Assembly (NCBI RefSeq): GCF_000364625.1
Contig: NZ_KB822603.1
Location: forward strand, 1-64,000
Direction: 5' to 3'
DNA: 64,000 nt
DNA from: Pseudomonas thermotolerans DSM 14292
GTDB lineage: Bacteria > Pseudomonadota > Gammaproteobacteria > Pseudomonadales > Pseudomonadaceae
Shown here piece by piece: positions 47,634 to 51,491 of the stretch (within the stretch, counting starts at the first letter, position 1; each line of letters opens with the position of its first letter). The notes below the pieces were generated by a model. That model did not search any database. It was not told the DNA's origin and saw nothing but the letters and a program-made list of their open reading frames with translations. Both the position numbers and the translations under genes were made by a program.

Positions 47634-48233
47634 TTACAGGCTGATCGGCCTGCGGCCGGCCAGGGCATGGGCCAGGGTGCCACCGTCCACCAGCTCCAGC
47701 TCGCCACCCAGCGGCATGCCGTGGGCGATGCGCGAGGTGACCAGGCCCTTGTTGGCCAGCAACTGGGCGATGTAGTGGGCGGTGGCCTCGCCCTCGACGG
47801 TAGGATTGGTGGCGAGGATCACCTCGCTGAAGCGGCCCTCGTCGATGCGCTTGAGCAACTCCGGCACGCCGATGGACTCCGGGCCCAAGCCGTCCAGCGG
47901 CGAGAGGTGGCCCTTGAGCACGAAGTAGCGGCCGCGGTAGCCGGTCTGCTCCACCGCGTAGACGTCCATCGGCCCCTCCACCACGCAGAGCAGGCTGTCG
48001 TCGCGGCGCTCGTCGCGGCACAGCGCGCAGACCTCCTCCTCGCTCAGGGTCCGGCAGCGCTGACAGTAGCCGACTCCCTCCATGGCCTGGGTCAGCGCCT
48101 GGGCCAGACGCAGCGCCCCGCTGCGGTCGCGCTCGAGCAGGTGCAACGCGGTGCGTTGGGCGGTCTTCTGCCCTACGCCGGGCAGGATGCGCAGGGCGTC
48201 GATCAGTTGGCGGATCAGCGGACTGAAGCTCAT
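47634..48233 (-). CDS. recR: recombination mediator RecR
   Basis: RecR works with RecF and RecO to load RecA at gaps. It has 199 residues: N-terminal HhH ([14 protein letters not shown]), the C4 zinc site [16 protein letters not shown], and a Toprim domain starting [14 protein letters not shown]. It is the last gene of dnaX-ybaB-recR. Confidence 0.96.
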
Positions 48234-48320
48234 CGGGGACTTCTCGCAGGGCAGCGGCTAGCAGCGATGGGGGCAGGTCAGGCCCGCCCCTGCGGCGGTT
48301 TTCGCGAAGCGGGCGGGACC

Positions 48321-48647
48321 TCAGAACGGCAGCTTGAAGCCGGGCGGCAGCTGCAGGCCGGCGGTCATGCTGGCCATCTTCTCCTGGTTGTTCTGCTCGA
48401 TCTTGCGCACGGCGTCGTTGACCGCGGCGGCGATCAGGTCCTCGAGGATCTCCTTGTCCTCCTGCATCAGGCTGTCATCCAGGCTGACGCGCTTGACGTC
48501 GTGGCGGCCGTTCATCACCACGCTCACCAGACCGGCGCCGGACTGGCCGGTGACCTCGGCATTGGCCAGCTCTTCCTGCATCTTCTGCATCTTTTCCTGC
48601 ATTTGCTGGGCCTGTTTCATCAGACCAGCCATGCCACCTTTGATCAT
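48321..48647 (-). CDS. ybaB: YbaB/EbfC nucleoid-associated protein
   Basis: The protein has 108 residues, the usual length, with the coiled N-terminal [18 protein letters not shown] and the core [18 protein letters not shown]. It binds DNA as a dimer. ATG 48647 ([12 protein letters not shown]) has GAGGTG upstream; the GTG three codons earlier is less likely. It lies 18 bases after dnaX. Confidence 0.93.
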
Positions 48648-48665
48648 GGGATTCACCTCGGATTG

Positions 48666-50759
48666 TCAGGGAGTGACGGGAGTGTCGACGGGTTCGATGC
48701 TGCCCTCGCGGATCACCGCGGAGAACTGCTGGATCATCTGCTGCACCAGGGGGTCGTTATGGATCGACGCCTCGGCGCACTTCTGGCGTTCGGCCCGCTT
48801 GCGCGCGGCGGCCTGGGCCGGGGTTTCCTGCTCGGGGCGGCGCAGCTCGATCTCCAGCTTCAGCGGACGTCCGTGGTACTGGTTGAGAGCCTCGTTGAGC
48901 CGCCGCTGCTGGGTGGCGTTGAACAGCGCGCCCTGGGCCGGGTCCAGGTGCATCTTCCAGGTATCGCCGTCCACCGCCACCAGGGTGCAGTTGGCGGCGA
49001 TGCTGGCGGTCAGGCCGCTGATGCCCAGGCGCGGGAACAAGTCCAGCCACTCCGCGGCCAGGCCGGTGGCCGGCGGCACGTCGGGCAGCGGCTCGGGCTC
49101 GGCCGGAGCCTGCTCGGCGGCGGCGAAGTCGTAGTCGTAGGCCTCGGGGTCGACCTCGTAGTAATCGTAATCGCCGGGCGGCGGCTCATCGTCGTCCTCG
49201 TCGGCGGCCGGGACAGCGGCAGCGCTGGCGGACGCCGCAGGCTCGACGGCCGGTTCGACAGGCGCCGCGGCCACGGGCGGCGGCGCGGAGACCGGCGCCG
49301 ACTCGACGGGAGCGGCCGGCATCTCGGGCGGCGGCGTGGTCTCGGCGAGCGGGGCCCTGGGCTCTTCCCAGGGCAGGTCCACCGTCGCTTCAACAGCTGC
49401 CGGAGCTTCCACTGACGGTGCTTCAACGGCCGCTGGCGACTCGACTGGTTCAGCCACGGGCACCCCGACTGGCGGCTGCGCCGACGACTCGGCGAGCGAC
49501 GCAACGGCGGCGGGCGGCGCGGGAGGGGTCACGGGGGCCGAAGGAGCGACATCGCCGGAAGCAGCAACGACCGGCGCCGCCAGAGCGGCGCCGGCCACTG
49601 GGGTTGCGTCGGAATCAGCCGTGGCCCTGCCGATTCCCGGATCCTTTAAAGGCGATCGCGGCGCGTTGCCAGCATCTCCGGGACGGAACGCCAGCATGCG
49701 CAGCAGGACCATCTCGAAACCGCTACGCGGATCCGGCGCCAGCGGCAGGTCGCGACGGCCGATCAGGCCCATCTGGTAGTAGAACTGCACGTCCTCGGCC
49801 GGCAGCGCCTGGGCCAGAGCCAGCACCTTGTCGCGGTCGCCCTGGCCGTTGTCCACCGCCTCGGGCAGCACCTGGGCCACCGCCACGCGGTGCAGCACGT
49901 TGAGCAGTTCGGCGAGCAGGCCGTTCCAGTCTGGGCCCTGCTCGGCCAGCTGACGCACCGCGTCCAGCAGGGCGCGGGCGTCGCCTTCGAGCAGCGCATG
50001 CAGCACGCCGTAGACCTGGCCATGGTCGAGGGTGCCGAGCATGGCGCGCACGTCGGCGGCCAGCACCTTGCCCTCGCCGAAGGCGATGGCCTGGTCGGTG
50101 AGGCTCATGGCGTCGCGCATCGAGCCATCAGCGGCGCGGCCGAGCAGCCACAGGGCGTCTTCCTCGAAGGGGATGTTCTCGGCGGTCAGCACATGGCTGA
50201 GGTGCTCCACCACCCGCTCCGGTGGCATGTTCTTCAGGGCGAACTGCAGGCAGCGGGAAAGAATGGTGACCGGCAGCTTCTGCGGGTCGGTGGTGGCGAG
50301 CAGGAACTTGACGTGCGGCGGCGGCTCTTCCAGCGTCTTCAGCAAGGCGTTGAACGAGTGCGTGGATAGCATGTGCACTTCGTCGATCAGGTAGACCTTG
50401 TAGCGGCCCCGGGTCGGCGCGTACTGCACGTTCTCCAGCAGTTCGCGGGTGTCCTCCACCTTGGTGCGACTCGCGGCGTCCACCTCAATCAGGTCGACGA
50501 AACGGCCCTCGTCGATTTCCCGGCACACCGAGCACTTCCCGCACGGGGTGGAGCTGATGCCGGTCTCGCAGTTCAGGCACTTGGCGATGATCCGCGCGAT
50601 GGTGGTCTTGCCCACCCCGCGGGTGCCGGTGAACAGGTAGGCGTGGTGCAGGCGCTGGCTGTCGAGGGCGTTGATCAGGGCCTTGAGCACGTGGGTCTGC
50701 CCAACCATCTCGCGGAAGGTGCGCGGGCGCCATTTGCGGGCAAGAACCTGATAACTCAT
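48666..50759 (-). CDS. dnaX: DNA polymerase III subunits tau (and probably gamma)
   Basis: DnaX is the clamp-loader ATPase and holoenzyme organiser. The full product has 697 residues. Domains I-II have Walker A GTRGVGKTT, the zinc site CLNCETGISSTPCGKCSVC, the DEVH box and the arginine finger region; domain III ends near 365. A low-complexity Ala/Pro/Glu linker (about 380-555) precedes the tau-specific C-terminal domain V (about 565-690), which contacts the polymerase. At codons 371-372 a T-TTA-AAG slippery site with a hairpin predicts a -1 shift to a 381-residue product. Confidence 0.96.
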   Translation of the reverse strand: MSYQVLARKWRPRTFREMVGQTHVLKALINALDSQRLHHAYLFTGTRGVGKTTIARIIAKCLNCETGISSTPCGKCSVCREIDEGRFVDLIEVDAASRTKVEDTRELLENVQYAPTRGRYKVYLIDEVHMLSTHSFNALLKTLEEPPPHVKFLLATTDPQKLPVTILSRCLQFALKNMPPERVVEHLSHVLTAENIPFEEDALWLLGRAADGSMRDAMSLTDQAIAFGEGKVLAADVRAMLGTLDHGQVYGVLHALLEGDARALLDAVRQLAEQGPDWNGLLAELLNVLHRVAVAQVLPEAVDNGQGDRDKVLALAQALPAEDVQFYYQMGLIGRRDLPLAPDPRSGFEMVLLRMLAFRPGDAGNAPRSPLKDPGIGRATADSDATPVAGAALAAPVVAASGDVAPSAPVTPPAPPAAVASLAESSAQPPVGVPVAEPVESPAAVEAPSVEAPAAVEATVDLPWEEPRAPLAETTPPPEMPAAPVESAPVSAPPPVAAAPVEPAVEPAASASAAAVPAADEDDDEPPPGDYDYYEVDPEAYDYDFAAAEQAPAEPEPLPDVPPATGLAAEWLDLFPRLGISGLTASIAANCTLVAVDGDTWKMHLDPAQGALFNATQQRRLNEALNQYHGRPLKLEIELRRPEQETPAQAAARKRAERQKCAEASIHNDPLVQQMIQQFSAVIREGSIEPVDTPVTP
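49611..49650 (-). other. programmed -1 frameshift signal in dnaX
   Basis: On the minus strand the heptamer T TTA AAG (49650-49644, in the 0 frame Leu371-Lys372) fits X XXY YYZ. Six bases later, 49637-49629 (GGAATCGGC) pairs with 49619-49611 (GCTGATTCC) in a 9-bp stem (one G-U) around a 9-base loop. The -1 frame adds nine codons and stops at TGA (49617-49615), inside the 3' arm, giving a 381-residue gamma-like protein. Confidence 0.75.
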
Positions 50760-50906
50760 TGAAAAACCGTCGCGGATGGGAAGCTGAAGTGGGCTAATCC
50801 TAGGGGCTGACGAGGTTTTGGCGCAAGGTCAATCGGCCGCGACCGACCGGGCCGCCCAGGAGATGGGGCGCAGGAGGAAAGGGAAAAAGCGTGGCCCGAA
50901 AATGGA

Positions 50907-51016
50907 GGTGGCCCCACCAGCCACACCCCGGCACACGATGTCACCGCTACGGCTGCTCCCTTCCGGGCCTGACCGGGTTCACGGCTGATCGTTGCGGGGG
51001 GACCGATGGAGCCACC
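50907..51016 (-). ncRNA. ffs: 4.5S signal recognition particle RNA
   Basis: The minus strand carries the SRP hairpin core GTCAGGCCCGGAAGGGAGCA, the preceding CCCGCAACG, and the distal GTGTGCCGGGG. The 5' GGTGGC (51016-51011) pairs with GCCACC (50912-50907), defining about 110 bases. It guides membrane-protein targeting with Ffh. The position beside dnaX is typical of pseudomonads. Exact ends are set from pairing only. Confidence 0.92.
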
Positions 51017-51046
51017 ATGACGATACCCGTCGTAACGGGCCGCGTC

Positions 51047-51074
51047 ATTGTACCGGCCTCGCCGCAACTTACAA
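51047..51074 (-). promoter_or_regulatory. promoter of the 4.5S RNA
   Basis: On the minus strand TTGTAA (51074-51069) and TACAAT (51052-51047) are 16 bases apart. The -10 lies 30 bases before the RNA's mature 5' end, so a short leader is removed, as by RNase P in E. coli. Confidence 0.6.
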
Positions 51075-51113
51075 CCTCTTCAAGCACTTAGCTGCAGCGA
51101 ATGGCCTTGGCCG

Positions 51114-51491
51114 TCAGCGCTCCTCGACCAGCCCAGGCGGCAGCGGCTGGGTGCTGACGCTCAGATCCGGAGCCAGGTAGAGGTCCAGGCTGGCGTAGCC
51201 GGGCCGGGTGCTGAAGCTGGTGTAGCGCTCATTGCCCTGGTTGAAGCGGAAGGCCACCCGGTAGTCGTCGCCGCGCCACAGCCGTAGAGGGAACTGGAGT
51301 ACCTCGCCGGGCTGGATCTCGCCGGCGAGGCGCTCCTCGTCATTCTCCAGGAAGCTGTAGCGCACCACGGCGCTGCCCTGCTGCGCATAGTGCAGGACGA
51401 TCTGCGGCCGCTCGCTCCACGCCAGGTAGGCGGCGAACAGCAACACCAGGGCCAGCACGCCGAGCAGGCGCTGCCGTCTCGTGCGCTCCAT
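51114..51491 (-). CDS. small membrane-anchored hypothetical protein
   Basis: The protein has 125 residues. One N-terminal hydrophobic segment (LLGVLALVLLFAAYLAW, about 9-26) acts as anchor or signal, followed by a beta-rich periplasmic domain (QIVLHYAQQGSAVVRYSFL ... RPGYASLDLYLAPDL). There is no lipobox. I do not recognise the family. It starts 4 bases after the HU-like gene stop and is probably cotranscribed with it. Confidence 0.75.
   Translation of the reverse strand: MERTRRQRLLGVLALVLLFAAYLAWSERPQIVLHYAQQGSAVVRYSFLENDEERLAGEIQPGEVLQFPLRLWRGDDYRVAFRFNQGNERYTSFSTRPGYASLDLYLAPDLSVSTQPLPPGLVEER

Follow-up and report, generated by a model that had tools for sequence, protein, structure and literature searches.

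Does the dnaX gene of Pseudomonas thermotolerans give rise to a second, shorter clamp-loader subunit by ribosomal frameshifting? The question is raised by a stretch of 64,000 nucleotides from strain DSM 14292 (assembly GCF_000364625.1, contig NZ_KB822603.1, positions 1-64,000), which we call the window. An initial annotation described a complete -1 frameshift cassette inside its dnaX gene. Comparison with related genes leads us to regard this dnaX element as very probably a programmed -1 ribosomal frameshift cassette, common to most of the Pseudomonadaceae sampled, that would yield a gamma-like DnaX. Frameshifting of this kind in dnaX is known already. What is new is the slip site and a probable pseudoknot; the open-access papers and passages that were searched gave no account of such a cassette in Pseudomonas dnaX.

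In the window dnaX occupies 48666..50759 on the minus strand, the strand of all features given below. Its full-length frame, encoding tau (697 amino acids), was recognized from the list of open reading frames and from Pfam matches to delta2, the ATPase lid, gamma3 and tau_5. The slip site read from the sequence, T_TTA_AAG (49644..49650, with the core A_AAG at 49647-49644), starts with the third base of codon 370 and continues with TTA as codon 371 and AAG as codon 372. A spacer of 6 nucleotides, GATCCG (49638..49643), leads to stem 1, in which sequence and folding place nine base pairs, one of them G-U, between the 5' arm GGAATCGGC (49629..49637) and the 3' arm GCTGATTCC (49611..49619). These arms enclose a loop of 9 nucleotides, AGGGCCACG (49620..49628). 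The initial annotation had all of these features exactly right, and also the difference between this heptamer and the A AAA AAG of E. coli.

After the slip the -1 frame would read GGA TCC GGG AAT CGG CAG GGC CAC GGC TGA, with the stop codon (49615..49617) inside the 3' arm of stem 1. Adding nine codons to 372 gives a predicted short product of 381 residues, encoded by 49617..50759 (0 frame to codon 372, then the -1 frame); our reading thus agrees with the stop and the length proposed earlier. The Pfam match to gamma3, which is domain III, ends at residue 357, and that to tau_5 covers residues 570-688. Judged by these matches, the short product would retain domains I-III and be without the alpha-binding domain V. 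The E. coli gamma chain (1jr3_A), with 373 residues, aligns to residues 1-362 of the 0-frame translation that served as query. The earlier suggestion that a short product would end just after domain III therefore stands.

For the first comparison 80 loci were used, and 57 genomes were searched, with 30 fetched; the genes were read near the end of domain III. Nine loci of this first set missed the anchor and were available in the protein view alone. In the family-wide comparison 192 dnaX loci reduce to 176 distinct rows. The motif LKxxGISxATADS is present in 150 of them; these were picked by their amino acids only, and the remaining 26, with an amino-acid motif score below 7, were set aside.

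What part of the slip site is conserved? A scan of codons 330-470 in the first set of 80 loci finds no heptamer of the form X_XXZ_ZZN that begins at codon 371, which rules out the full heptamer as the conserved unit. N CTA AAG, followed by GGR ATY, is present in all 47 Pseudomonas-like loci with DNA shown (L005-L020, L022-L035, L037-L051, L055 and L069). Taken together, these two results indicate that the conserved unit is a shorter slip site combined with the stem. The larger sample gives the same picture: A followed by AAG occurs in every one of the 150 rows, the preceding codon being CTA in 132, TTA in 15, TCA in two and GGA in one. G_CTA_AAG is found in 110 rows and the full T_TTA_AAG in eight, with six state changes on a tree built from the domain I-III region of dnaX. 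The initial annotation looked to relatives for a conserved heptamer and a covarying stem; the stem does covary, as described below, but the heptamer drifts, and it does so in its P-site half only.

The A before AAG is kept when the amino acid that it helps to encode changes. It is found in TCA (L124 and L209), in GTA (L188, one of the rows set aside) and, in genus g26, in GGA or GAA. In three loci (L088, L124 and L209) an apparent duplication of five codons has produced two copies of the slip region; the copy 6 nucleotides before the stem reads CTA AAG or TCA AAG, the other TTG AAA or TTG AAG.

In g26 the residue before lysine is glycine or glutamate, with the element some 14 to 44 codons past domain III. 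Because a covariance model of the element served to find these loci, part of their agreement with it comes from selection. A locator that required AAG alone gave an A-final codon before AAG in 24 of 25 g26 loci (L324 was missed), while a second, which required A_AAG, found every one of the 25, each with 8 or 9 stem pairs out of 9. In each of the 25 a -1 stop follows nine codons on. By our count by eye, 20 of them hold G_GGA_AAG, which ranks among the top three heptamers for efficiency in E. coli according to a passage of PMC4066793. Tetramers and full heptamers thus appear, from the sequences, to alternate in evolution, the window being a heptamer case.

In each of the 82 distinct cores that make up alignment A1, between 7 and 9 of the 9 pairs of stem 1 are formed. 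Both sides have changed in five of the nine pairs. Taken over the whole structure, none of the five measures was reached by any of 500 shuffles, and partners slid out of register were only 19-52% paired. Alignment A2 adds g26 and holds 76 of 107 rows (56 of the 82 in A1 and 20 of the 25 from g26), picked by hand with near-duplicates dropped. It repeats the covariation, and at one pair A-U gives way to U-A and C-G. A single shuffle of 500 reached one measure in A2; the cells with two-sided changes were reached by 0 of 500 in both alignments. Spacer length is identical in the 82 aligned cores, but the amino-acid motif by which rows were picked itself fixes this spacing.

A stop codon in the -1 frame is present in all 150 rows, after nine codons in 127, four in 18 and five in five. 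At random positions in the same genes a stop occurs within nine codons in 20.1% of cases, and the median distance is 31 codons. In four rows (L134, L161, L164 and L165) the TGA of the stem has been lost, and all four are among the 23 rows with an earlier -1 stop. By hand arithmetic that ignores kinship, the chance of such a coincidence is about 4 in 10,000.

An RNA element could sit in this coding region for another task, such as a pause for protein folding, mRNA cleavage, or the binding of a protein or small RNA, with A_AAG and the -1 stop as by-products. The strong conservation and covariation of stem 1 would be expected of it too, and the stem sequence largely dictates TGA. Nevertheless, A_AAG is not part of the stem, and it persists whichever of five amino acids precedes lysine. 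The -1 stop is ever present by way of three solutions, and in the four rows that have lost TGA a different stop stands in. Of the two copies in an apparently duplicated slip region, A_AAG is carried solely by the one that lies 6 nucleotides ahead of the stem. We consider this explanation unlikely.

Might the conservation be that of a linker peptide, LKxxGISxATADS, without any RNA function? Its amino acids are indeed conserved inside a linker that otherwise drifts. What speaks against it is the fixation of rare synonymous codons. Leucine codons with a final A account for 98.7% at the slip column (three of the 150 rows are misaligned there, which explains the difference from the 150/150 of the direct row count) and at most 9.2% in 54 other conserved leucine columns; over the whole gene, slip site included, 3.2% of leucine codons end in A (CTA 2.3%, TTA 0.9%). 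The glycine of the stem is GGR in 100% of the rows that have glycine there, the next-best glycine column reaching 68%. Three codons upstream of the slip site 108 rows have arginine, encoded in 92 of them by AGR, and AGR makes up 3% of arginine codons overall. In g26, moreover, the residue before lysine has changed and the RNA features have not. A peptide without RNA function is therefore a very improbable explanation.

Third-base changes were also counted on the tree. At the leucine, lysine, first alanine and valine of the element we counted 1, 0, 0 and 0 changes, the fewest among columns of the same residue. Aspartate ranks second of 23 and glycine third of 25, and the threonine of the loop (ninth of 16) and the second alanine (ninth of 38) vary in the ordinary way. 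Of 343 eight-column spans, the one that covers the element ranks third from the bottom in third-base changes.

The upstream AGR codon is Shine-Dalgarno-like. Upstream of the slip site of the window no Shine-Dalgarno-like match was found, and 17 of the 150 rows have none of at least 3 nucleotides. It is tempting to suppose that a full heptamer compensates for the loss of this part, but as a rule the idea is unsupported: four rows with T_TTA_AAG (L118, L119, L205 and L208) keep AGG.

The initial annotation described a simple hairpin and missed a putative partner of its loop. The loop segment GGCCAC (49621..49626) could pair with GTGGCC (49593..49598), which lies 12 nucleotides past stem 1, as the 5' and 3' arms of a predicted stem 2. 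The loop codon GCC is present in 150 of 150 rows, with zero third-base changes on the tree. GTGGC, the partner of loop GCCAC, lies within 23 nucleotides past stem 1 in 146 of the 150. A loop partner of five base pairs occurs within 22 nucleotides in 144 rows, compared with counts of 38, 27 and 11 out of 150 for stretches farther downstream, and in 143 of these 144 it stands 9 or 12 nucleotides from stem 1. Stem 2 of five base pairs is missing from L009, L011, L036, L091, L197 and L224. In g26 the partner shrinks to GGCC, found within 25 nucleotides in 22 of 25 loci against a background of 22%, which is only suggestive. The 3' stimulator is thus probably an H-type pseudoknot, in which the loop would pair with GTGGCC; by known geometry, a stem 1 of 9 base pairs and loops of 3, 1, and 9 or 12 nucleotides suit such a fold. 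Comparison strongly supports the proposed cassette in its A_AAG, stem and stop, and makes a pseudoknot more probable than the simple hairpin.

How might the element work? A ribosome with Lys-tRNA(UUU) on AAG would be delayed by the 3' stem-loop, probably closed into the H-type pseudoknot. The Lys-tRNA may then re-pair one base back, on AAA. In the window the Leu-tRNA of the P site could re-pair as well, from TTA to TTT, because CCT TTA AAG contains the complete heptamer. Ribosomes that have shifted would terminate nine codons on and release a DnaX of 381 residues, with domains I-III and without the polymerase-binding end; unshifted ribosomes would go on to make full-length tau. As a guess, the rate of shifting may be anywhere from a few to tens of per cent. 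We infer that the short form would serve as a gamma-like subunit of the clamp loader. In E. coli, a single tRNA-Lys for AAA and AAG has been linked to shifting on AAG (a passage of PMC5009743), and A_AA.G is the most shift-prone tetramer when tested with the IS3 pseudoknot (an excerpt of PMC4066793). Among the 54 tRNA matches in the window's genome, all of them typed, the only tRNA-Lys genes are two with anticodon TTT.

A shift into the +1 frame was also considered. In the +1 frame CTA AAG and TTA AAG contain TAA, but the preceding codon varies and rows with TCA AAG or GGA AAG lose this stop, which disfavours the idea.

It is likely, in our judgement, that the Pseudomonadaceae make gamma by a distinct cassette, in which a single tRNA slips on A_AAG before an H-type pseudoknot. 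Its strength would be tuned over evolution by gaining a full heptamer (T_TTA_AAG in the window and other lineages, G_GGA_AAG in g26) and by the gain or loss of the Shine-Dalgarno-like stimulator.

How widespread is the element? In the window's genome the covariance model has one strong match, at dnaX (E-value 9.8e-11), the next best being 0.375. At an E-value of 0.01 it matches 361 of 398 genomes of the family, in 14 of 19 genera; some of these genomes had been used in training it. Of 244 genomes of the order scanned with the model, 10 match, all within Pseudomonadaceae. Two g26 genomes (G351 and G361) are without a match, although GAA AAG and a -1 stop after nine codons are present at their loci (L222 and L220).

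Among the 26 rows set aside, candidate slip sites followed by a -1 stop no more than 12 codons on are present in 10 and absent from 16. Four of the ten have an A_AAG candidate (L188, L220, L222 and L223). Two that lack the element (L053 and L162) have G_GGA_AAG with the -1 stop one codon on, three that also lack it (L215, L216 and L219) have A_AAA_AAA with the stop one to three codons on, and also A_AAG or A_AAA_AAG, and one (L218) has C_CCA_AAA. Other members of the order carry an in-frame A_AAA_AAG at dnaX codons 385-465 (L056, L057, L059, L062, L065, L068, L074, L075, L078 and L084). These are possible ancestral or parallel cassettes, and their position elsewhere in dnaX means that the family cassette may be a remodelled older one.

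Several observations weigh against programmed frameshifting, and we bring them together here. The fold energy of the element is ordinary: a segment of 51 nucleotides gives -15.2 kcal/mol, with a z-score of -0.67 and 40 of 200 shuffles as good. We dropped fold energy as uninformative. The window alone could therefore not raise the element above chance, and relatives were needed. Stem 2 hardly covaries, and conservation is its support; this is explained by the facts that stem 2 hardly varies and that a linker of either 9 or 12 nucleotides defeats a single ungapped alignment. The element is not the only part of dnaX with few synonymous changes, since two spans at codons ~119-129 (about 50373-50405, RYKVYLIDEVH in the window) are quieter. 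Mostly common codons are kept in that patch (GAA for glutamate in 142 of 150 rows), unlike the rare codons kept in the element. Five of the 19 genera of the family have no covariance-model match at an E-value of 0.01. The draft assembly is also without tRNA-Ile(GAT), which makes the lack of a second tRNA-Lys good but not final evidence.

Published observations point the same way. According to an excerpt of PMC4066793, even a strong pseudoknot brings tetramers in E. coli to no more than 5.6%, so the short product may be a minor one. A passage of the review PMC3290774, through which Jarvis 2005 enters here, states that P. aeruginosa dnaX expressed in E. coli gives only full-length tau, and that most bacteria are without dnaX frameshift signatures. 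The tau-only result fits the cassette if its efficiency is low and the product was missed, or if E. coli ribosomes respond weakly to it.

The ordinary fold energy, and the absence of T_TTA_AAG from 142 of the 150 rows, could also be taken to mean that a chance heptamer and a chance hairpin, private to the window's genome, have fallen together. The model finds the whole element in 361 of 398 genomes of the family, and the conservation of codons and of the -1 stop refutes chance as well, which leaves this explanation with almost no credibility.

E. coli dnaX is among the closest known systems. The two share the gene, a -1 shift with an early stop, AAG for the A-site lysine, a downstream structure, a short product that keeps the clamp-loading domains and, in most relatives of the window, an upstream Shine-Dalgarno-like sequence. 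They differ in the slip site, which is the heptamer A_AAA_AAG in E. coli and an A_AAG core here (T_TTA_AAG in the window), and in its place, AAG being codon 430 in E. coli and codon 372 in the window, 58 codons earlier. The E. coli structure is a hairpin, whereas a pseudoknot is predicted here, and the window is without the Shine-Dalgarno-like part of E. coli. In insertion sequence elements the frameshift yields a longer transposase product, in contrast to the shorter replication protein that a shift would give here. A likeness of design to IS3-family cassettes lies in the combination of a tetramer slip site with a 3' pseudoknot (as in an excerpt of PMC4066793).

Other routes to gamma from one dnaX are slippage on a long run of A in Thermus thermophilus and proteolytic cleavage of tau in Caulobacter, as a passage of PMC5009743 has it, and neither has a slip tetramer with an RNA structure. 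Transcriptional slippage, known from Thermus dnaX, can hardly apply to the window, where the site has three consecutive A and dnaX slippage runs have seven to ten (excerpts of PMC5009743 and PMC3711429).

Around the gene we note the following. A cmscan of 48300-51200 with E-values up to 5 listed no dnaX element at the site. The sole RNA to reach the gathering score was the bacterial small signal recognition particle RNA (RF00169, 78.9 bits) at 50912-51008, just upstream of dnaX. The open reading frames that follow dnaX, at 47634-48656, resemble ybaB and recR, in the same order as in the annotation of E. coli.

If our interpretation is correct, what would it mean? A chromosomal gene would offer dozens of natural variants of a slip site with its structure, the 82 distinct cores and 20 more. 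The function of gamma would become testable outside E. coli by one synonymous base change, CTA to CTG. Whether bacterial replicases generally contain gamma has been disputed, with considerable controversy in the case of E. coli (a passage of PMC5009743). A selected signal across most of the sampled Pseudomonadaceae would mean that a short clamp-loader subunit has been kept there too, by a signal that is differently built.
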